Assembly: GCA_028287235.1 (NCBI GenBank) | Contig: JAQBQB010000023.1 | Span: 124,001 to 188,000 of the forward strand | Length of the DNA: 64,000 nt | Source: Gemmatimonadota bacterium | GTDB taxonomy: Bacteria; Gemmatimonadota; Gemmatimonadetes; Gemmatimonadales; Gemmatimonadaceae | Direction of reading: 5' to 3' | Made by a program: the position numbers and the translations under genes | In this document: piece after piece, positions 51,709 to 64,000 of the stretch | Layout: every line of letters begins with the position of its first letter | How positions within the stretch are numbered: the stretch's first letter is position 1 | The notes under the pieces: model-generated | Databases searched by the model: none | What the model saw: only the letters and a program-made list of their open reading frames with translations | What the model was told of the DNA's origin: nothing

Positions 51709-54537
51709 TCAGTGTTCGGCTTCCGCGAGCACGGCGGCGGCGAGCTCGTCGAGCAGGAACGGCTTGCTGATCGTGGGGCAGCCAGTCGCGTCGAGCACCT
51801 CGCGCGCCGCTTCGCTTTGCGTATCGCCGGTGATGAACACGACGCGGCCGGGCGCCGCAGGGAGTGCGCGCAGCTGTACCAACACCTCGTCGCCGGTGAC
51901 GTCGGGCAGCCGGAGGTCGAGGATCACCGCGTCGTAGTGCACATCCGCGGCGTGCGCGATGGCCTCGCGACCGGTGCCCGTGACATCGACGGTGTGACCG
52001 AGCGACCGAAAAAACATCGCGACGGCCTGTCGAATGGCCGGCTCGTCGTCGACGACGAGCAGACGGCGGCTCGGAGTGACGGGAGCCACGACGCCGGTTT
52101 CCACCGGCGCATCCGGCAGCGGCGGCGACACGTAGGGCAGCGCGATGATGAACGTCGTGCCCTGTCCCACGCGCGACTCGGCGCGAATCCGTCCGCCGTG
52201 CTCGCGAATGATGCCGTCGGAGATCGACAGGCCAAGTCCCGTTCCTTCACCAACCGGTTTGGTGGTGAAGAACGGATTGAAGATTCTCGGAAGATGCTCC
52301 GGCGCGATGCCCGGCCCGGAATCGGTCACGCGAATCACGAGCTCTTCCCCACTCTGCGCCGTCGTGATCTGGATGCGGCGCGGACCGTCCCACGCCGACA
52401 GCGCGTGCTCGGCGTTCGTGACGAGGTTGAGCACGACCTGCTGCAGCTGAAACGAATCTGCCCACGTGATCGGCAGCGCGAGATCGAAGTTCGTCTCGAT
52501 CTCGACCTGCGCCAGGCGCAGCGCGTACCGCCGCAGCTCGAGGGTGTCGTCGATGACGCGATTCAAATCGGTGATTGTGCGCTCGGGCTGATGCTGGCGC
52601 GCGAACGTCAGCAGGTTCGCGACGATCTTCGCCGCGCGCTTCGATTCCTGGTTGATCGCCTCGATGGCGCGCCGATCCTGCGGCGTCGCGTCGGGACCGG
52701 CGAGCAACAGTTGCGCGAACGCCATCACGCTGGCCAACGGGTTGTTCAGCTCGTGCGCTACACCGCTCACGAGCTGGCCGACTGCCGCCAGCTTCTCTTG
52801 CTGCATGAGTTGTTCGGCCAGCCGCTTCTCGTCCGTCACGTCGCGCACCACGCCGAGGGCGCCGGTGATCGCGTCGGCCTCGGTGAGCGGCGTGAGCGTG
52901 AGCGAGCAGTAGCGCGTTTCGCCGTCGGCCGCGGGGTAGCGCAGCTCCACGCGCCGCCGCTGCCCGTTGAACGTGTCGTTCAGCGCCTGGCTCGCGGCGG
53001 CCTGGTCGCGCGAATCAATCAGCTCGGCGAACGACGCGCCGACGAGCTCCGTGCGGATCTTTCCGGTCGATCGCTCCAGCGAACGATTCACCGCCGTCAT
53101 CGACCCGTCGGGAGCAACGGTGAAGATCGCGTCGGACGCCGACTCGACGAGCCGCGTGTAGCGCGCTTCCGACCGCTCCAACGCCAGCGCCCGCTCCCGC
53201 TCCTGCGTGACGTCGCGCGCCACGCCGAGAATCCCGATGACGAGCGAGCCGTGGCGTATCGGCGTGTTCGTCACCGAGGCGAGCCGTCGCGTGCCGTCGG
53301 ATCGCACGAAGTGACATTCGTATCGGCGCGCCGATCCCGTGAGCGCCGACTTGAAGTGCTCCTTCACCGTTGCCGCCTCGCTTGGCGCGACGAGCGGCAG
53401 TGGACTCCGGCCCAGCAACTCGTCGCGCAGCTTGCCGGACATCTCGCACGTCGCTTCGTTCACCGACGTGAACGACCCTTGTGTATCGAGCGTGTAGATC
53501 GCATCGGTCGCCGTCTCGAACAGGTTGCGGTAGCGCGCCTCGGATTGCGCCACGGCGTCTCGTGCACGGCGCTCGTCCTCCGACGCCTGGCGGTACCGAT
53601 CCGCGGCGCCCTTCGCCTCCTCGTACAGGCGAGCGTTCGCCACGGCTACCGCGACCTGATCGGCGAGCCGCTGCAACACGACCGCGTCGTCCTCGGTGAA
53701 CTCCGAATCGCGGTTGATCACGGAAAGCGCGCCGATTACTTCCTCGCTCGAGAAGAGCGGAGCGATGAGCGTGTTGCGCACGTTGGCCGCGATGCGCGTC
53801 GGTGTGTACGCCTCCGGCACCGTCGAGTCGTTCGCGATCACCGCCTGGCGCTCGAGGATGGCGCGCCCCATGACGCTGGCGTTGAGCGGCACCGGTGCGC
53901 CCACCAGACACTCGGCCGCGCCAATTCCGGCCACGAGGACGATCTGATCGTCGCGCAGCAGCCCGAGCGCGGCGCCCTCGGTGCGGAGCAGCGCCACCGC
54001 GTGGCGCAGGCTGAGCTGCATCACGTCGGCGAGGCGGAGCGACCCGCCCACGGCGCGCGCGATGTCGCCGAGCGCTTCGCCGCGTCCGCGCTCGCGCTGG
54101 CTCTCGTCGTACAGCCGCGCATTCTCGATGATCGACGCCACCTGTTGCGCGAACAACTCCACGGTTCGCACTTGCGCGAGCGTGGGCGGCCCCGACTGAT
54201 CGGCGTCGCCGAGCACGAGCGTCGCCACCGTCGCGCCGTCCACGGCGCGCACGGGCACGATCAACTCGTCCGAGTCGAGGAACGCCGACGTACTGATCCA
54301 CGCGACGACCGACGCGTCGGCCGGCATCGAGTAGTCGTGGCGCGTGTCCACGCGTCCGTATCCCAGCTTCTGGATGGCGCTAACCAAGATGCGCAGCCGG
54401 TCCTCGAGCGTACGCGCCCGTTCGACCTCGGCCAGTGCCTCGTGCAGCAGGAAGAGCTGGTCGCGCTCCCGCAACAGGCGCGCGATCGCGATGGGTGCTG
54501 GATCGTGGTCGGTCAACCGGGTCGGCGCGGACGTCAC
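51709..54537 (-). CDS. Hybrid histidine kinase (GAF-GAF-PAS-PAS-HisKA-HATPase-REC)
   Basis: 942 residues from a GTG at 54537 with GAGGTGAT upstream. A short N-terminal helix is followed by two GAF domains (about 25-145 and 155-300; DEFFA-like ends are absent, but VGAPVPLNASVMGRAILERQ is typical). Two PAS domains follow (about 325-445 and 450-570; SEARYRNLFETATDAIYTLD, SEARYTRLVESASDAIFTVA). HisKA has VSGVAHELNNPLASVMAFAQ, and HATPase has NLVTNAEHAL, DSGPGIAPE and GEGTGLGLSISDG. A C-terminal receiver carries VDDEPAIRQA, VILDLRLPDVTG and ISKPFLLDE. It is soluble. The start lies four bases after the lipid kinase stop, so it may respond to the envelope state. No output gene nearby. Confidence 0.92.
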   Translation of the reverse strand: MTSAPTRLTDHDPAPIAIARLLRERDQLFLLHEALAEVERARTLEDRLRILVSAIQKLGYGRVDTRHDYSMPADASVVAWISTSAFLDSDELIVPVRAVDGATVATLVLGDADQSGPPTLAQVRTVELFAQQVASIIENARLYDESQRERGRGEALGDIARAVGGSLRLADVMQLSLRHAVALLRTEGAALGLLRDDQIVLVAGIGAAECLVGAPVPLNASVMGRAILERQAVIANDSTVPEAYTPTRIAANVRNTLIAPLFSSEEVIGALSVINRDSEFTEDDAVVLQRLADQVAVAVANARLYEEAKGAADRYRQASEDERRARDAVAQSEARYRNLFETATDAIYTLDTQGSFTSVNEATCEMSGKLRDELLGRSPLPLVAPSEAATVKEHFKSALTGSARRYECHFVRSDGTRRLASVTNTPIRHGSLVIGILGVARDVTQERERALALERSEARYTRLVESASDAIFTVAPDGSMTAVNRSLERSTGKIRTELVGASFAELIDSRDQAAASQALNDTFNGQRRRVELRYPAADGETRYCSLTLTPLTEADAITGALGVVRDVTDEKRLAEQLMQQEKLAAVGQLVSGVAHELNNPLASVMAFAQLLLAGPDATPQDRRAIEAINQESKRAAKIVANLLTFARQHQPERTITDLNRVIDDTLELRRYALRLAQVEIETNFDLALPITWADSFQLQQVVLNLVTNAEHALSAWDGPRRIQITTAQSGEELVIRVTDSGPGIAPEHLPRIFNPFFTTKPVGEGTGLGLSISDGIIREHGGRIRAESRVGQGTTFIIALPYVSPPLPDAPVETGVVAPVTPSRRLLVVDDEPAIRQAVAMFFRSLGHTVDVTGTGREAIAHAADVHYDAVILDLRLPDVTGDEVLVQLRALPAAPGRVVFITGDTQSEAAREVLDATGCPTISKPFLLDELAAAVLAEAEH

Positions 54538-54541
54538 GGGA

Positions 54542-55438
54542 TCACCTCTGCTTCGGCACCAGAACGCGAACGGCGAGCGGCTCGACCACGACACTGAACG
54601 GAGTCGTACCCATCAGCTCCCCGTCGGCCTGCCACTGCTGCGGCGGTGTGGTATCGACGCGAATCTCCTTCCCCCGCCCGTACAGCATGCAGGGATCGGA
54701 CTCGAAATCGCCGCGCAGCATCCGCCACGCAATGCGCGTCGCGTCGCGAAGCGTGCGCGGCGAGAAGACGCAGCCGTCGAGCAAGCCGTCATCCGTCCGA
54801 ATCTCCGGGCCGAGGGTGATCCGCTTCCCGAGCACCGCGCCGAAGTTGGCCACCATCACGGCGGCCGCACGGCGCTCGTGGACTACGCCGTCGATCGTGA
54901 GGCGAACATCGAAGAATTCACGACGCAAAACCGCGCGCAGCGCGGCCCGGGTGCCCATCATCGTGTAAGCGAGGATACCCAATCGACGCTTCAACCAGGC
55001 TGGCGTTTCAGCCACCATGCTCGCGTCGATCCCCACGCCCGCCGCAATCGCGAACCGGCGCCCCGACTCGAAGCGTCCGAGATCGATCTGCACCTCGCCG
55101 CCGGAAAGCAGCGCGGGCACCGCCTGCTTGATCGACAGCGGAATGCCCAACGCGCGCGCGAGCAGGTTTCCGGTGCCTCCGGCGAGCACGCCGATTGGCG
55201 TGTCGGAGCCCGCCAACGCCCCCGCGACCTCCATCACCGTGCCGTCGCCGCCGAGGGCGAAGATCACATCGTAGTGCGGCGCATGCTGAAGGGCGAGCTC
55301 CGTCGCGTGCCCCGCGCGCTCGGTGAACACCAGGTCGCACTCGACCGAGCTGTCGGCCAGCAGCTGGCGAGCTCGCTCGGCGAGGCGATTGCCTTTGCGC
55401 GATGCGGGATTCGCGATCACGATCGCGCGCCCGATCAA
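54542..55438 (-). CDS. Diacylglycerol/lipid kinase family protein (YegS/LCB5-like)
   Basis: 298 residues of the DAGK catalytic fold. It starts with IGRAIVIANPASRKGNRLAE, followed by the nucleotide-binding FALGGDGTVMEVAGALAGSD and GVLAGGTGNLLARALGIPLS, and in the beta domain VQIDLGRFESGRRFAIAAGV and DDGLLDGCVFSP. The likely substrate is a lipid with a free hydroxyl; YegS phosphorylates phosphatidylglycerol in vitro. The start chosen is a TTG that overlaps the tamB stop (TTGA). A GTG nine bases upstream is an alternative. The linkage to tamB suggests a role in envelope lipid balance. Confidence 0.9.
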   Translation of the reverse strand: MIGRAIVIANPASRKGNRLAERARQLLADSSVECDLVFTERAGHATELALQHAPHYDVIFALGGDGTVMEVAGALAGSDTPIGVLAGGTGNLLARALGIPLSIKQAVPALLSGGEVQIDLGRFESGRRFAIAAGVGIDASMVAETPAWLKRRLGILAYTMMGTRAALRAVLRREFFDVRLTIDGVVHERRAAAVMVANFGAVLGKRITLGPEIRTDDGLLDGCVFSPRTLRDATRIAWRMLRGDFESDPCMLYGRGKEIRVDTTPPQQWQADGELMGTTPFSVVVEPLAVRVLVPKQR

Positions 55439-58400
55439 AAGCGCCACGTATGCGACAGCGAGAAGCTGAATTGGCCCGGCGTCGGCTGGAATCCGGTCAG
55501 CAGCTGCGACTCGCGCGAGCAGATTCGGTTCGCCGTGGGCGGGTCGTACGCAACCTGTGCCGAGAGCGTCGGATCGAACCGGTACTCCACCTTGGCGCCC
55601 AGGCTGCCGAGCGCCGTGAAGTTCGACGTGTTCTGCGTGAACCCGCACAGCCCGGTGTTCAAGTTGAAGTACAGGTTGCCGCCGAACTGCTTCTCGGCGC
55701 CGATTGTCGCGCCGTTGAGGTACTGGCTGAAGTTCCGCGGATCAAACGGATTCTGGCCCGTCGCGTTGTCGGCCGACCCAAGCTGGAATTGCAGCATGTC
55801 GAACCACGACCCGAGGTTCTGCCGCAGCCCCGCGGCCGCCACCGCGCTCAGGGTGGGAGCGAGCACGTTGGCCAGCACCTGCGACGCGCCGGTGTTGTTC
55901 GCGCCGCCGAGATCCAATCCCGGCCGTCCGGTGATCAGATAGCTCACCAGATCCGACTGCGAGATCGCGTACTCGGTGGTGCTCTTGAAGTCGATGTTCG
56001 GGTTCGGCATGCGCCCGTGCAGATTCACGATCACGCCGATGTCGCGGTCGCGATACTGCTTCACGTTGTACAACGCGTTGATGTCGAGGGTCGGCGTTTC
56101 CGGCGGCCCGTCGAAGGTCACGACGCCGTCGGGAAGCACTGCGAACTCGCGCTGCACCACGCCGAGGTTCAAGACGTACGTGCCGTCCACCGTGCGAAGC
56201 TGGCCCTCGAGCGACAGCTTCGGGATCAACGTACCCGACGCCGTCGCCCGCGTCGACCGCGCGGTCGACGTTCGGAGGTTCAGCGTGCCGGTCAGGCGCA
56301 CGTTCGCTTCGCTCGAGCGAAGCCGCACGTTGTCGCCGAGCGCGATCGTGACACCGCCCTGCAGGTTGGTGATCAACGTCGTCAAGAAGGAGGGCACCGT
56401 GGTCACGCCCGACGTCGACGTGCTGTCCACCACCTCTTCCACGACGAGCTTTCGCGCGAGGTCGCGGTCGGCGAGGTAGATCGCGCCGCGATCGACGCGC
56501 AGACGTCCCTCCAGCGTGTCCGCCCTGAGTGTGCCGTGCAAGCGCAGCGGGGTGGAGTCGGTCGAGATGTAGAGGTCCGCCAGCGAGCGCTTGTTCAGCG
56601 CGTGGAACTGCCTCGCCACCAGCCGCAGGTCGAGCAACGGCGACGTCTTCGATGCCCCAGGAAGATTGAACCACCCGTCGAGCTGCAGCGAGCCGCTCGG
56701 CTGTCTGTCGTTCGCCGCGGTGAACTTGACGGCGATGCTATCCTGCGTGCCCGCCGCATTCAGCGCGGCGAAGATGCTTCCGTCGATGTCGACGATCTTC
56801 ACGCCCATGGGGCGGACGACCACCGAGCCGTTGCGCACCGCGACGTTGCCGTTGAACAGCTCGGCGCCCCATTTGCCCGAGAGCCGCGCCGTCGCCGACA
56901 GCTTGCCCATCACGCTGTCGATGGTGCCCGGCGTGAGCATGCCGCCAATCGCGAGCAGCGTGCTCACGATCGACAGGTCGGTGGTGTCGGCGTGCAGCTC
57001 TCCCGAGAGCGATCCAGGAATCTTTCGCGGCGCGCTGAACAGCGCGATCTCGATCGGAAGATCGGCCTGCGCCGAGAGCGCGGTCTGCCCGCCGCGAACG
57101 AGGTGTCCCGTCGCGTTGAGCCGACGGTCGCGGTACGCCGCGCCGAGGGCGATCGAGTCGATTGGAAATCCATCGACCTTGAGCGACGTGAGCGACGCGC
57201 TCGCGGCGATGCGCGGACTCGATTTGGTCCCCGTGATTCCGGCAAGCACGTCGGCGACGCCCGATACGGTATCGCGGAACTGCGCGAGCGCCGCGAACTC
57301 GCCGAGCGGTATTCGCGATGCGCTGAGCTGCGCGCTCACCGGCCCCACGTCCGGCACGTTGGCGCTCAGCACGACGACGGCCGTATCGCGATTCCGCAGC
57401 ACGAGCGAGTCGATCCGCACTCCGGCGCTGTCCTTCGCCAACCGCACCGGTTGCGCGAGACGCCAGTCGTCCGCGCCCACGGTGAGCGCCATGGAGTCGA
57501 CGACGAGGGTTTTTGCGGCGGGCGTCAAGCTCCAGTTGCCCGCCGTCGCCAGCGTGGGGCCGTTGTGGCTCAACGCGCCAATCCCGAACCGTCCGCGCGT
57601 CAAGCTGTCGAAGCGGGCCGAGAGGCCGACCGTGTCGAGACGGACTCCGGCCAACACCGCCGTATCGACGCGTGCGTTCACCGAACCCGATCGCGCGCCG
57701 AGCAGGTCGTGAATGTCGAACGTGCCCTGCACTACCTCGCCGCGTTGACCGTTCACGTACAGGCTGCTGGCTGTCAGCCGGCCGCGCACGTCGAGCGAGT
57801 CGAAGGTGCCAGTTGCGACTCCGCTGATCACCCCGCCGCCCGAGAGCGAATCGGGCGGCGTCGCGGCCGCACCGAGCAGCGTCGTGTCGGGATGCGAGAT
57901 CAGCGGACGCCAGCCGCCGAGCGAGTCGACGGTGAGTGTGAAATGCAGCGAGTCGGCACGGCCGTTCGGCAAGCCGATCGCGCCGTTCGCCACGAGCGTC
58001 GCGGCCTTGGTCGGGACGCGCAGCGAATCGATGATCATGCGGCCGTCGGCGAAGCGCACGTGCGCGCGCGACGGATAGACCGGAATGCTGTCGATGATCG
58101 TTCGGTCGAGCGCGAGATCGGCGGCGCCGCGCAGCGTGGCGGCGTTCGCGCCGGCAACGTCGACGTCATAATGGCCGCTCAGCGTGCCGGCGGGAATGGT
58201 CGGCTTCTCGAGCAGCGCCGCGGGATTGAGCGCGCTGAACTGCCCACGGCCGCGCGCGGCGTACCCGCCCACGGAATCGATGTCGAGTCGTCCGTCGAAG
58301 CTGAACGCGCCGGCCGCGCCCTGCAGCGACGTCGCCAGCTCGAGGTCGGGCGACGACCCCTTGGCGCGAATCGGCCCGCTCATCAGCCCGCGGAGCGGCA

Positions 58401-60039
58401 GCGCCGGATAGGACCGAGCCAGCATCGTCCACGACAGCGGATGTGCGTCCATCACCACGTCGTAGCTCATGAACTTGTCGCCGTACGTCACCCGCCCGCT
58501 TCCGCTGGCGCGCGACGGCTCGCCCGGACCGTCCTGGTGCGCGATGTTCGCGTTCGAGAAGCGCAGATCGAGCCACGACGAATCGAGCGTGGCGGTGCCG
58601 GAGACAAAGCCGCCGAGGCGCGGGAAGCTGGGGAACAGATACTCGATCGACCGAAGATCGATCGAGCTGGCGTCCACGTTGAACCTGTGAAAGGTCGTGA
58701 ACGCGGGCAGCAGAATGTCGAGCTCTCCCTTGCCCGCGAAGCGCGACACGGCGCCGCGAACGTGCGCGTCCTGAAATACGCCGCGGGCATCGTCGACCAC
58801 GAAGTGCGTGAGCGGACCGCCGCGCGCCTTCACGGTGCCCACGATGTCTCCCTGAAAGTCCACGGGGAACTTCTTCCCGTTCAGCGTGCGGAGCAGGTCG
58901 AAGTTCACCGGATCGGCGCGCATGTCGACGTTCTGCACGAGCAGGATCGGCGCGCCCGTCGCGAACGTCATGTCGCCGACGACGTGAGACTTCGTGCTGC
59001 GCACGTCCATCTTCGCGAGCTTGAAGTCGATGATCTGCAGATTCCTGGGGTCGTTCTTGATCAGCAGGTCGAGCGTGCCGCCGCCGGTGCGCGGCAACGT
59101 GGGATACACCCAGTTCACGTCGTCGAGCGATACCGAGTCGCCGCGGATCGCGATGTCGTAGCGCATGGGCAGGTTGCTTCCCCACCACACCTTTCCCTTT
59201 CCGCTCCCGGTCGACGCCGGCATGTCGAAATGCGGAATGGCGAACCAGACGGAATCCTGGAGCCGCCGCACGTTCCCGCGCACGTGCCGGAACTTGAACG
59301 TCGGCTCGTACTCGTCCACGGAGAGCGAGTCGATCCGGAACTCCTGTCCCACTTTGCGATCGCTGTCGGGATCGGCCAACCGCGCGTGCGAGCTGAATCC
59401 GTGGGCGTTCGTCCAGGAATAGGTACGCGCGTAGCCGTCGAACACCTTCGAGACCATCTTCGCCGGATTCGACAGGTGCGCCTTGATCACGCTGTCGCGC
59501 GCCGTGCCGCGCTCGTCGGGCCGCCAGGGCAGCGACAGGTAGAACGACGCGTTGCGCGTGGACGTCGAGTCGATGACGATGTAGTCACCGAAGTTGCGCG
59601 TCTTCGCGTCCTTCGGCTTGCTCGGCTGGTTGTTGCCCGACGCGAAGATCTCCTGGAAATTCCACACGCCGTTGGCGTGCTGGATGAGATGCACGTAGGG
59701 GTGCTCGACGTTCAGACGGCTGATGTAGATGCGCGAGTCGATCAGATCGCGCGGACTGAGCGTGAACGTGATCGGCCCACTGCTCAACAACCGCTCGCCG
59801 CGTTTGTCGCGAATGTCGACGCTGTCGATCGCGAAGGTCGTGATCAAGTTGCCGCTGAGATGGCCGACGTAGATCGACCCGCCCTTGAAGTTCCGCGTCG
59901 CCAGTCCCTGCACCAGCTCGCGCAGCTTGCCCCGCCCCGTGTCCGAGCGCGTCACGAAGAGAACCGTGGCCACGGCCAGGATTCCCAACGTGACGAACAC
60001 GGCGGCGCTCACGAGCGCCACGAGGCGACGACGCTTCAT
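55435..60039 (-). CDS. tamB: Translocation and assembly module inner-membrane component TamB
   Basis: 1,534 residues: one N-terminal signal-anchor helix (LVALVSAAVFVTLGILAVAT, residues 7-26), a long run of beta-taco repeats of AsmA type (RNFKGGSIYVGHLSGNLITT near the start), and the C-terminal DUF490/TamB domain from about 1150. That domain contains NARVD-like and LRSSEANVRLTGTLNLRTST segments, and GTLIPKLSLEGQLRTVDGTY. It ends with the typical barrel-like strand SFSLSHTWRF, the final Phe being the OM-protein signature. TamB spans the periplasm between the membranes and is thought to carry phospholipids or help outer-membrane protein insertion. Its ATG follows the tamA-like stop by one base, so the pair is coupled. 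Confidence 0.93.
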   Translation of the reverse strand: MKRRRLVALVSAAVFVTLGILAVATVLFVTRSDTGRGKLRELVQGLATRNFKGGSIYVGHLSGNLITTFAIDSVDIRDKRGERLLSSGPITFTLSPRDLIDSRIYISRLNVEHPYVHLIQHANGVWNFQEIFASGNNQPSKPKDAKTRNFGDYIVIDSTSTRNASFYLSLPWRPDERGTARDSVIKAHLSNPAKMVSKVFDGYARTYSWTNAHGFSSHARLADPDSDRKVGQEFRIDSLSVDEYEPTFKFRHVRGNVRRLQDSVWFAIPHFDMPASTGSGKGKVWWGSNLPMRYDIAIRGDSVSLDDVNWVYPTLPRTGGGTLDLLIKNDPRNLQIIDFKLAKMDVRSTKSHVVGDMTFATGAPILLVQNVDMRADPVNFDLLRTLNGKKFPVDFQGDIVGTVKARGGPLTHFVVDDARGVFQDAHVRGAVSRFAGKGELDILLPAFTTFHRFNVDASSIDLRSIEYLFPSFPRLGGFVSGTATLDSSWLDLRFSNANIAHQDGPGEPSRASGSGRVTYGDKFMSYDVVMDAHPLSWTMLARSYPALPLRGLMSGPIRAKGSSPDLELATSLQGAAGAFSFDGRLDIDSVGGYAARGRGQFSALNPAALLEKPTIPAGTLSGHYDVDVAGANAATLRGAADLALDRTIIDSIPVYPSRAHVRFADGRMIIDSLRVPTKAATLVANGAIGLPNGRADSLHFTLTVDSLGGWRPLISHPDTTLLGAAATPPDSLSGGGVISGVATGTFDSLDVRGRLTASSLYVNGQRGEVVQGTFDIHDLLGARSGSVNARVDTAVLAGVRLDTVGLSARFDSLTRGRFGIGALSHNGPTLATAGNWSLTPAAKTLVVDSMALTVGADDWRLAQPVRLAKDSAGVRIDSLVLRNRDTAVVVLSANVPDVGPVSAQLSASRIPLGEFAALAQFRDTVSGVADVLAGITGTKSSPRIAASASLTSLKVDGFPIDSIALGAAYRDRRLNATGHLVRGGQTALSAQADLPIEIALFSAPRKIPGSLSGELHADTTDLSIVSTLLAIGGMLTPGTIDSVMGKLSATARLSGKWGAELFNGNVAVRNGSVVVRPMGVKIVDIDGSIFAALNAAGTQDSIAVKFTAANDRQPSGSLQLDGWFNLPGASKTSPLLDLRLVARQFHALNKRSLADLYISTDSTPLRLHGTLRADTLEGRLRVDRGAIYLADRDLARKLVVEEVVDSTSTSGVTTVPSFLTTLITNLQGGVTIALGDNVRLRSSEANVRLTGTLNLRTSTARSTRATASGTLIPKLSLEGQLRTVDGTYVLNLGVVQREFAVLPDGVVTFDGPPETPTLDINALYNVKQYRDRDIGVIVNLHGRMPNPNIDFKSTTEYAISQSDLVSYLITGRPGLDLGGANNTGASQVLANVLAPTLSAVAAAGLRQNLGSWFDMLQFQLGSADNATGQNPFDPRNFSQYLNGATIGAEKQFGGNLYFNLNTGLCGFTQNTSNFTALGSLGAKVEYRFDPTLSAQVAYDPPTANRICSRESQLLTGFQPTPGQFSFSLSHTWRF

Positions 60040-60040
60040 A

Positions 60041-62320
60041 CTAGAAACTGTTACCGATCGAGATGGTCAGCGTGAGCTTCTTGAAAAAATTCGAGGACTG
60101 CGGCTGTCTGAACGTGGCGGGACACCCGGTGTTCTCCTGGACGAGAGCGCCCGTGCTCGGATCCTTGTGAACGAGGATCGGCGCCGACCCTGTAGGACTC
60201 ACGCAGATCAGGGGCGCGTTGGGAGCGCTTCCCTCTGGGAAGTACGCCTGCGCCGCCGGACTCCCGTACGGATTGTACCCTGCGTTGACGTTGATGGGAC
60301 CGACCGGCGACGAGATACGGACGCCGATTCCCGGCGTGACGGCCAGACGCGTGAAGCCGAGGTTTTTCACGCCCGGCTGACGCGTCCACACCTCGCCCGC
60401 GTCGGTGAACAACGCGTACTGCAGCAGCTCCGGAAAGAATGGGTCGCGCAGACGGAGCTCGACGTTCGCCACGATCAGCTGGTTGCCGCCCACCGGCACG
60501 GTTCGCTGAGCCCGCTTTCCGTCGATAACGGTGTACTCGAAGGTCGTGTCGTCGATCGCCTTGATCGCCACCGCATCGGAATTCAGCAGATACACGACCG
60601 ACCCGAGCTCGTTCTGCTGGAAGCCTCGCACGCTCGTGGCGCCGCCCGCGTACAGGCGCTCTTCCGGCGTGGGCAGCTTGGTGCCGCCCACCGCGCCAAG
60701 GCGAAGCCGCGTCGCCAACACGGCACGCGACGGCAGCGGGTAAAACCAGGATCCGTCGAACGTCCCCTTGATGAACTTGAGCGCCGTGTCCGATCCGAGC
60801 CACGGCTCCGAGAGACGCAGCTCGCCGGCGACCGATGTGCCACTCGTCGGATCCACGGGGTTGTCGGTACGCGTGCGCCGGAGCGCGACGCTGGCGATCG
60901 CCGAGCGGAGGCGCCGCTGAATTTCATCTTGCTGCGGCTGCGTGCACCGGCTGAAGATGAGACAGAGCGTCGTCGGTTGCCCGCGGGTCTGTCCGAGCTC
61001 GAGAGTATAGGCCAGCCGCAGCGGCATGCCGAGCGCAATCGTGCGCGTGGCCGACGCCTCGCCGCCGATGTCGGTCCGGCGCAGATACGCTTCGTACTCG
61101 CCGCGCCGTTCGCTGTACAGCGAATACGACGGCACCCAGTGCGTCCCGAACAGGCTCGGCTCGCGCAGCGTGGCGCCCACGTAGTAGTTGACCGTGGAGC
61201 TGGCGATGCTGTCGTTGTCGAGATACCGCCGGTAGCAGAGGTTCTGCCGCGTGAACCGCCAATTCGTCGGATTGCCCCAGCCGAGCTTCGACGCGCGGCC
61301 CGTGAGCTCGAGGTGATGTGCGTTCTTCAGGAAATTCTTGTCCGTGTACTGCGCGCTCGCGCGCCCGCAGTCGAGTGTCGCCCAGCCTTCTTCCTGGTCG
61401 ATCTGCCGCATGTAGTCCTCGCGCAGATCGAGCGCGACGTCGGCGAGCGTGTCGCCGTGCTGCCACGTCGTGTCGAGCGCGATGCCGACGTGCCGGTACG
61501 CGCCGAGCTGGTAGAGATTCCGCTGCGCCTCGACGAGCGCGCGATCGCTGTACCAGTCGCCGGTTCGGAAGCCGAGCAGCCGCAACACCACGGCGCTGTC
61601 GATCTCCGGTGGCCCGCCATTCACCCCCACGCTGCGCACGGCGATCTCGTTGATGCGTGCGCGGGCGCCGGGTTGCACGTCGAGCGTCACGGTGGCGCGA
61701 TGCTCCTGCAGCTGCACCGACGACGCGGGATAGACCGCCGCGTGCGCGTAGCCGAAGTTGCGCAGGCGACCGACGATCGAATCGATGTCCGCGAACATCG
61801 AGAGAAAGCTGAAACGTCCTCCCACTTTGAGCTGGAGGTTGCGCAGGACTTCGTCGCGCTGCGGAACGGAGTCGAGCCCCGTGATCGTCAGCGAGTCGAG
61901 GACGATCGGCTGCCCTTCGTCGATCCGGAAGGTGACGGCGACCGCGTTCGGCCCCACCGCCTGGACGAGTGTGTCGACCTTGGTGTTGTAGAAGCCGTTG
62001 TTCCGGTAGAACTGCGTCAGCGCGCGAACGTCGGGCCCGAGCCCCACGCTCGGATAGCAGCGCGGCGTTCCGAACACGCGGAGATACCGCTTGGCGAACG
62101 ACGAGGGCGTCGTGAGCACGCGGGCCGAGAGGTCGTCGTCGGTGAATGTCCTGTTCCCTTCGAAGCTGAGGACCCGCACTTCCTTGCGACCGTCATCGCA
62201 GGCGACGTCCTGTGCGTGCGCCACGGCCGGCAACGCCGTCAGCGCGGTCAGTGCAGACAGGAGCGCGAGCGCCGCCACGACGAACGGCTGGACGGGCACT
62301 CCTCCGAACCGGAAACGCAT
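60041..62320 (-). CDS. Omp85-family outer-membrane protein (TamA/BamA-like)
   Basis: 759 residues. A signal peptide (1-37, ends AVAHAQ) is followed by POTRA repeats from about 45 to 330 (RVLSFEGNRTFTDDDLSARV, ALTQFYRNNGFYNTKVDTLV, NLYQLGAYRHVGIALDTTWQ) and a 16-strand barrel. The L6-type motif is in YAGGATSVRGFQQNELG (VRGF), and the last strand ends LTLTISIGNSF with the C-terminal Phe. It is followed at one base by tamB, so TamA is the best name, although true BamA is not excluded because another bamA is not in the window. The ATG shares one base with the stop of the small gene before it (TGATG). Confidence 0.9.
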   Translation of the reverse strand: MRFRFGGVPVQPFVVAALALLSALTALTALPAVAHAQDVACDDGRKEVRVLSFEGNRTFTDDDLSARVLTTPSSFAKRYLRVFGTPRCYPSVGLGPDVRALTQFYRNNGFYNTKVDTLVQAVGPNAVAVTFRIDEGQPIVLDSLTITGLDSVPQRDEVLRNLQLKVGGRFSFLSMFADIDSIVGRLRNFGYAHAAVYPASSVQLQEHRATVTLDVQPGARARINEIAVRSVGVNGGPPEIDSAVVLRLLGFRTGDWYSDRALVEAQRNLYQLGAYRHVGIALDTTWQHGDTLADVALDLREDYMRQIDQEEGWATLDCGRASAQYTDKNFLKNAHHLELTGRASKLGWGNPTNWRFTRQNLCYRRYLDNDSIASSTVNYYVGATLREPSLFGTHWVPSYSLYSERRGEYEAYLRRTDIGGEASATRTIALGMPLRLAYTLELGQTRGQPTTLCLIFSRCTQPQQDEIQRRLRSAIASVALRRTRTDNPVDPTSGTSVAGELRLSEPWLGSDTALKFIKGTFDGSWFYPLPSRAVLATRLRLGAVGGTKLPTPEERLYAGGATSVRGFQQNELGSVVYLLNSDAVAIKAIDDTTFEYTVIDGKRAQRTVPVGGNQLIVANVELRLRDPFFPELLQYALFTDAGEVWTRQPGVKNLGFTRLAVTPGIGVRISSPVGPINVNAGYNPYGSPAAQAYFPEGSAPNAPLICVSPTGSAPILVHKDPSTGALVQENTGCPATFRQPQSSNFFKKLTLTISIGNSF

Positions 62321-62553
62321 CACCCGTCGCGCTGTCCGCCGTCGGGCAATCGCCAACGCGCGGCGGCAATCCGACCGCCGCGATCGGGTACGAGCGGCGT
62401 GCGCTCGCGATAGAGCCGCGCGAGGTAGAATGCGGCGACTCCCGCGGCCACCCCAACCCCGATGACGGGCAGCAGCTCGCGAACGCTCAGCGAGCGCCGA
62501 TAGAAATACTCAGGAACCGCACGCTCGGCGCGCGGATCGCTCTTTGCAGGCAT
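62320..62553 (-). CDS. Small single-helix membrane protein preceding tamA
   Basis: 77 residues: a charged N-terminus (MPAKSDPRAERAVPEYFYRR), one helix at about residues 27-45 (LLPVIGVGVAAGVAAFYLAR), and a basic tail. The ATG at 62553 has GAGG upstream. The stop overlaps the tamA start by one base, so its product is made together with the Omp85 protein. No family is recognised. A role in the translocation module or in membrane insertion is a hypothesis from position. Confidence 0.65.
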   Translation of the reverse strand: MPAKSDPRAERAVPEYFYRRSLSVRELLPVIGVGVAAGVAAFYLARLYRERTPLVPDRGGRIAAARWRLPDGGQRDG

Positions 62554-62683: not shown

Positions 62684-64000
62684 ATGAAATGTATACGCTC
62701 GCTCGTCCTCTCGGTGGCCGCACTCGTGATCACCGGGTGCGGATCGACTGGCGCACCCACCCGGCATGAGCTGATCGACTCGCGGGACCAGTACGATCCG
62801 CGCTCGCTCGACCCGGCGCTCTCCACCGACGTACCCACCGGCCGCGCCGTCGGCTACGTGTTCGACGGCCTCACCCGCTTCGACCCCAACGCCCGGGTCG
62901 AGCCGGGGCTCGCCGAACGATGGGAGGTCACGCCCGACGGCCTCACCTACACCTTCCACCTCCGGCACGGCGTTCTGTTTCACGACGGAACGCCGTTCAC
63001 CGCGAAGCACGTCGTCAACAGCTGGCAGCGGGCGCTCGACCCGGTCACCAAGAGCGGCGCCGCGCAGTTTCTCTTTCCAATCCGGGGCGCGCGCGAGCTC
63101 AACGCCGGAACGGCCAAGATCCTGTCGGGCGTCACCGTGCACGACGACAGCACGCTCGTCGTCACCCTCGCCGAGCCGCTGGCCATCTTCACGAAGATGC
63201 TCGCCATGCCCGTCGCCGCGGTCGTTCCCAACGACGTGCCCGCGAACTTCGGCGAGCACCCCATCGGCACCGGGCCGTGGAAGCTCGTCGAGTGGAAGCA
63301 CGACGACTATCTGCTCTTCGCGCGGAACCCGTCCTACTTCGGCGGCGCGCCGAAGACCGACAGCCTCCGCGCCCGCATTATCGCCGAGCCGAGCACCGGC
63401 GTGGCCGAGTTCGAGAGCGGCAACGTCGACATCCTCCAGATCCCGGCCAGCGAAGCGTCGGACTGGCAGGAGGATGAGAGCAAGAAGCCGCTGCTCATGT
63501 CCACGCCGGCGCTCGAGCTGGTGTACGTCGGCATCAATACCACGCGCGGTCCACTCACCGACGTCCGCGTCCGCCAGGCGATCAACTACGCCATCGACAT
63601 CAACCGCATCATCGAGCGGCTGATCAGCGGGCGCGGTACACGCGCGGCGGGCGTCATACCGCCGGCGCTCCCGGGATACGACAGCACGCGCAAAGCGTAT
63701 CCGTACGATCCGGCCAAGGCGAAGCAACTGCTCGCCGCCGCCGGCCATCCCGACGGCATCGACATCGAGCTCTGGACGTCGGTGGCGCCGATCTACCTCC
63801 GCATGGCCGAGACGATGCAAGCGTACCTCAAGGCCGTGGGGATCCGCGCCAAGATCGTGCAGCGCGAATCGGCCGCGGTGCGCGGCGCGGCGCGCAAGGG
63901 CCAAGTGGACATGATCCTCAAGGACTGGTACGCCGACTACCCTGACGCCGAGGATTTTCTCTATCCATTGTTGCACAGCGCGAACCGAGGCGCCGGCGGC
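62684..64000 (+). CDS. Oligopeptide ABC transporter substrate-binding lipoprotein (cut by window end)
   Basis: The frame is open to the window end: 439 residues seen, about 80% of a typical OppA-type protein. Lipoprotein signal MKCIRSLVLSVAALVITGC with Cys19. Family 5 solute-binding domain segments include SLDPALSTDVPTGRAVGYVF, WEVTPDGLTYTFHLRHGVLF, HDGTPFTAKHVVNSWQRALD, TGPWKLVEWKHDDYLLFARN, and VRVRQAINYAIDINRIIERL. It binds peptides in the periplasm for an ABC importer whose other genes should lie to the right. The ATG is placed by the signal and by its promoter. Confidence 0.92.
   Translation, partial: MKCIRSLVLSVAALVITGCGSTGAPTRHELIDSRDQYDPRSLDPALSTDVPTGRAVGYVFDGLTRFDPNARVEPGLAERWEVTPDGLTYTFHLRHGVLFHDGTPFTAKHVVNSWQRALDPVTKSGAAQFLFPIRGARELNAGTAKILSGVTVHDDSTLVVTLAEPLAIFTKMLAMPVAAVVPNDVPANFGEHPIGTGPWKLVEWKHDDYLLFARNPSYFGGAPKTDSLRARIIAEPSTGVAEFESGNVDILQIPASEASDWQEDESKKPLLMSTPALELVYVGINTTRGPLTDVRVRQAINYAIDINRIIERLISGRGTRAAGVIPPALPGYDSTRKAYPYDPAKAKQLLAAAGHPDGIDIELWTSVAPIYLRMAETMQAYLKAVGIRAKIVQRESAAVRGAARKGQVDMILKDWYADYPDAEDFLYPLLHSANRGAGG

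Follow-up and report, generated by a model that had tools for sequence, protein, structure and literature searches.

Gene content and layout of the locus

The window, by which we mean the whole stretch of 64,000 nucleotides that was analyzed, belongs to a genome of 5.73 Mb and carries a tightly packed minus-strand gene cluster (Table 1). Five of its genes, encoding a small one-transmembrane protein, a TamA-like Omp85 protein, TamB, a diacylglycerol kinase (DGK) and a hybrid histidine kinase, overlap or touch exactly as a preliminary description of this DNA had claimed. The small gene shares a TGATG overlap with the TamA-like gene, a single base separates the latter from TamB, TamB and DGK overlap by four bases (TTGA), and four bases lie between DGK and the hybrid kinase. 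That description took the five genes for one operon, and the packed unit is indeed there, but five is an arbitrary cut, since at least three more genes follow downstream: ZnR, which starts 16 bases past the hybrid kinase stop; an S58 peptidase gene, joined to ZnR by a GTGA overlap; and an NlpC/P60 gene. A sequence scan of the operon returned no internal promoter-like or terminator-like sites above shuffled expectation, and the transcript probably extends past the five genes through ZnR, S58 and NlpC/P60.

Table 1. Genes of the TamB-DGK cluster and its divergent neighbor, in window coordinates.
Feature	Position	Strand	Remarks
Small one-TM protein, 77 aa	62553-62320	minus	First gene of the operon; restricted to some members of the window's family
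TamA-like Omp85 protein, 759 aa	62320-60041	minus	Pfam Omp85 + POTRA
TamB, 1534 aa	60039-55435	minus	Pfam TamB; N-terminal membrane anchor; TamB domain 1114-1499, C-terminal
DgkB/BmrU-type diacylglycerol kinase (DGK), 298 aa, soluble	55438-54542	minus	DAGK_cat + YegS_C; TTG start
Soluble hybrid histidine kinase, 942 aa	54537-51709	minus	GAF regions, PAS, PAS, HisKA, HATPase_c, Response_reg (REC); GTG start
ZnR, 64 aa, 8 Cys (four CxxC)	51692-51498	minus	No Pfam, NCBIfam or PDB match
Peptidase family S58	51501-50503	minus	GTG start overlaps ZnR stop
SH3 + NlpC/P60 protein	50513-49695	minus	Pfam; overlaps S58 gene
Family-5 extracellular solute-binding protein (SBP_bac_5)	62684-64000, runs past window end	plus	Divergent neighbor of the operon

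The TamA-like protein and TamB

In Escherichia coli, TamB, YhdP and YdbH serve glycerophospholipid transport to the outer membrane (PMC8593681, PMC8912898), and both the structure of TamAB and lipid transport have been reported (PMC12800296). The genes tamA and tamB share one operon (PMC4494059), and the present locus resembles the TAM operon of Proteobacteria in that an Omp85 gene is followed at once by TamB. It differs in that the TamA-like protein lies nearer to the BamA profile and far under the TamA equivalog score, and in that DGK, the signaling genes and ZnR are additions in the Gemmatimonadota locus. Neither "gemmatimon" nor "kinase" occurs in the main text of the paper on TAM evolution (PMC4494059).

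The C-terminal domain of TamB is clearly recognized (PF04357, 121.2 bits against a Pfam cut-off of 22.4). The NCBIfam equivalog scores stay below their cut-offs for both TamB (68.6 against 825 bits) and the TamA-like protein (73.9 against 625 bits), and we therefore label the pair TamA-like and TamB-family rather than equivalogs. The TamA-like protein aligns to positions 151-720 of the BamA profile, i.e. without the first two POTRA domains, which suggests a putative architecture of three POTRAs and a barrel; two POTRAs were matched in it. A full-length BamA is encoded elsewhere in the genome. The source genome also holds a second TamA-TamB pair (C1:233000-250000), which has no adjacent DGK.

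Conservation of the TamB-DGK linkage

Conservation was assessed in 40 relatives and in a separate phylum sample of 101 genomes, where a TamB and a YegS_C domain match were counted as linked if they shared a strand and were separated by less than 1.5 kb. Among the 40 relatives, the order TamA-TamB-DGK-(signaling)-ZnR-S58-NlpC recurs over many genera, and the four-base overlap between TamB and DGK is repeated in other genera. In the phylum sample TamB is present in 101/101 genomes and a YegS_C kinase in 94/101; DGK stands just behind TamB in 51 of the 101, and these represent five families, of which two lie outside the window's order. The linkage is found in 20 of 37 genomes of the window's own family (f1), in all members of its sister families (f2, 21/21; f3, 2/2) and in all those of two families outside the order (f7, 7/7; f8, 1/1). 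It is absent from f5 (0/23, same class), f6 (0/2) and f9 (0/5, another class), and in f4 the count is 0/3 under the 1.5-kb limit, although in 2/3 a single gene is all that separates TamB from DGK. Chance adjacency would occur in roughly 1 in 1000 genomes, a rough estimate that assumes one or two copies of each gene among several thousand and is to be read with the non-independence of related genomes in mind. The objection, anticipated in the preliminary description, that the order might not be conserved among relatives thus does not hold. Much of this arrangement is shared throughout the bacterial order, and a portion of it throughout the class. The coupling is nevertheless dispensable, because it is absent from 23/23 genomes of f5, from 17/37 of the window's family and from 5/5 of another class.

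Named Gemmatimonadota contigs repeat the gene order, some of them being the same records as sampled genomes (e.g. L191, L200). At DGK loci from outside the Gemmatimonadota no clear TamB neighbor was found, with a marginal match (7e-05) on one unclassified contig (L217). Two variants of the cluster were seen in passing. A gene for an M48 protease separates TamB from DGK in f8 and in two of the three f4 genomes (by Pfam on L134 and L135, by sequence likeness on L136), and in another order of the class the TamB-DGK cluster has Lgt, the prolipoprotein diacylglyceryl transferase, upstream of TamA (by Pfam on L131, by sequence likeness in L133).

Flanks of about 20 kb were compared in ten genomes, in eight of them on both sides, and the divergent SBP_bac_5 gene, which lies upstream of TamA in several genera, was the only further gene of the window to recur in other genera. 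Matches to two signaling proteins in a same-genus flank (G003) look like paralogs. Leftover synteny was accordingly rejected as an explanation of the linkage. The same comparison bears on a second possibility, namely that TamA/TamB, DGK, the peptidases and the signaling genes are co-expressed housekeeping genes that share a promoter for envelope growth with no direct lipid or regulatory link. TamB is kept in lineages where DGK has been lost or has moved, and the neighbors vary by family (Lgt upstream in one, the M48 protease in two), as this explanation would have it; against it, only the operon genes stay together while the flanks do not, and the TamB-linked DGKs form a distinct clade (below). 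We regard it as possible but doubtful.

The diacylglycerol kinase

Soluble kinases of the DgkB type act at the inner membrane, where they turn diacylglycerol into phosphatidic acid. The DGK of the window scores 132.4 bits against TIGR00147 (cut-off 118.65), which places it in the YegS/Rv2252/BmrU group. It carries DAGK_cat and YegS_C domains. The preliminary description called it YegS-like, but the protein resembles DgkB/BmrU more than YegS, and the best structure matches of its profile are DgkB/BmrU. The GGDGT and GTGN motifs and D272-G273 are invariant in 23 relatives, and the closest named relatives by DGK are Gemmatimonadota, such as a Gemmatimonas sp. MAG with 65% identity. Another DGK is encoded elsewhere in the source genome. 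In a tree of 60 DGKs, all TamB-linked copies (including L129, a TamB-linked copy of f7) form one clade (99/97), joined there by a few relocated copies of the window's family, and the other DGK of these genomes falls in a second, separate clade.

ZnR and the downstream genes

ZnR, which the preliminary description missed, was found in 52 of 101 genomes, all within the window's order, and in 51 of these 52 it is encoded on the strand of TamB, no more than 9 kb downstream. It is thereby the most faithful neighbor of TamB in that order. Its eight cysteines are invariant among relatives, and the cysteine pattern indicates that ZnR probably binds zinc. AlphaFold returned a confident small fold (pLDDT 87.6, pTM 0.65); a fold search of the PDB gave no significant match, the weak hits being cross-brace-like zinc fingers (ZZ, PHD, C1, RING; best E 0.44).

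The downstream genes invite a different reading, in which the signaling genes, the divergent SBP, S58 and NlpC/P60 jointly serve the scavenging of peptides or nitrogen, with TamA/TamB and DGK as passengers. SBP_bac_5 is kept next door, S58 and NlpC/P60 lie downstream in many loci, and the regulator of the relatives (below) is NtrC-like, all of which would suit scavenging. However, the regulator and ZnR remain with TamB and DGK where a match to S58 or NlpC is missing, and ZnR stands directly behind TamB in six genomes, so that we consider this reading unlikely.

The hybrid kinase and the NtrC-like regulator

The last of the five genes encodes a hybrid histidine kinase, with HELNNP, GTGLGL and the receiver Asp/Lys in its HisKA, HATPase_c and REC domains. 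By hydropathy it has no convincing transmembrane segment, and therefore any sensing is likely to be cytoplasmic and nothing points to the kinase reading outer-membrane supply directly. Among 38 linked loci in the window's order, some of which end early, a full NtrC-like regulator follows DGK in 22 and a kinase match was obtained in 17; in the sister families the NtrC-like regulator is present with no kinase match. The kinase is thus the variable part; the NtrC-like regulator and ZnR accompany the unit more often. Most relatives carry the NtrC-like regulator before ZnR, whereas in the window's genus the REC-bearing kinase is followed directly by ZnR and the operon has lost this regulator. The best NtrC matches in five other genomes of the genus reach 40-42% identity, whereas the operon copies of f2 and f3 reach 54-55%. 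The source genome encodes a 48% identical NtrC relative on another contig, and a receiver tree places it with the operon clade. We also considered the REC domain of the hybrid kinase as a remnant of a lost NtrC receiver; this was rejected, since the RECs of hybrid kinases group in a clade of their own (100/99) and a hybrid REC and an NtrC gene occur together in several relatives.

Integrity of the GAFTGA motif was used by Francke et al. (PMC3162934) to separate true sigma54 activators from other regulators. GAFTGA is absent from all operon-linked NtrC-like regulators examined (L031-L066, L137-L142, L184-L247): one branch has GAFTDA or a near variant, the other has no recognizable loop motif, and the Walker motifs are mostly intact. 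The canonical motif is present in the NtrC paralogs L156 and L158, and RpoN is encoded in the source genome. Autoregulation through sigma54 was rejected, as no -24/-12 site above shuffles lies upstream of TamA; across loci the scan found a site in 1 of 34 at p 0.01, about chance level. Comparable NtrC proteins without GAFTGA, i.e. receiver-AAA+-HTH regulators that have lost the sigma54 loop, act at sigma70 promoters in Caulobacter and Rhodobacter capsulatus (PMC10274813). The difference is that here the predicted regulator gene lies inside the TamB-DGK operon of the relatives.

These results bear on the lipid-homeostasis circuit proposed in the preliminary description, in which the kinase senses a shortage of outer-membrane lipid and corrects it through the operon. 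The conserved packed unit stands, and within the order most relatives do carry the kinase or the NtrC-like regulator in this cluster. Sensing of outer-membrane supply is not supported: the kinase is soluble and missing from many relatives, no sigma54-like site precedes the operon and the regulator has no GAFTGA. In the window's genus the operon contains no regulator and therefore no DNA-binding output for such a loop. We judge a circuit of this kind very improbable.

A proposed TAM operon with its own lipid kinase

We favor, at a probability of about 0.5, a TAM operon of Gemmatimonadota type in which a TAM conduit is co-expressed with a DgkB-type kinase and a variable signaling cassette. On the observed gene order, conservation, clade structure and motif states, we infer the following lipid flow and regulation. 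Judging by their families, the TamA-like protein and TamB would form a conduit that spans the envelope and carries phospholipids and/or outer-membrane proteins. The co-translated DGK would act at the inner membrane, phosphorylating diacylglycerol to phosphatidic acid; diacylglycerol would thereby re-enter phospholipid synthesis, and lipid would become available at the place from which TamB may draw it. Because the reading frames of TamB and DGK overlap, their translation may be coupled, which suggests matched supply and export. In most relatives from the order, the GAF/PAS kinase and/or NtrC-like regulator behind DGK probably tunes expression of the operon itself or of a different envelope unit; for the window's genus, whose operon has no such regulator, the soluble hybrid kinase would have to signal elsewhere, or may be in the course of being lost. 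ZnR would be a small accessory, probably zinc-binding.

The putative function of a lipid-supply module is read from gene order; the second TamA-TamB pair with no DGK beside it, the further DGK elsewhere in the genome, the lineages without the linkage and the presence of S58 and NlpC/P60, neither of them a lipid gene, count against it. A wider proposal, that TamB, its own DGK clade, ZnR and an NtrC-like regulator off sigma54 make up a class-wide lipid-supply module with export and recycling set jointly, is tentative and on balance rather doubtful.

Regulated diacylglycerol kinases do occur among envelope lipid genes, as in the dgkA-eptA-mdoB operon of Vibrio vulnificus, which is controlled by the two-component system CarRS (PMC10433830), and mcr-3 occurs with dgkA (PMC7559476). 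Those loci place a DgkA-type enzyme beside phosphoethanolamine transferases, whereas here a soluble DgkB type lies beside TamB. The preliminary description knew of no such system, and our search of the open-access literature agreed, yielding no account of a TamB-DGK link; the locus combines known families in a conserved arrangement not found described in open-access papers. The lipid kinase and ZnR, kept with TamB through deep divergence, are candidate partners that may feed or regulate TamB-type lipid transporters. If the proposed regulation is true, the locus would also offer a natural case of an NtrC-like regulator, devoid of the sigma54 loop, tied to envelope genes. In f3 a receiver protein is added between DGK and the NtrC-like regulator (L051, L052, L054, L056, L061, L062); where tested (L052, L062) it is a REC-HD-GYP protein, which hints at c-di-GMP.
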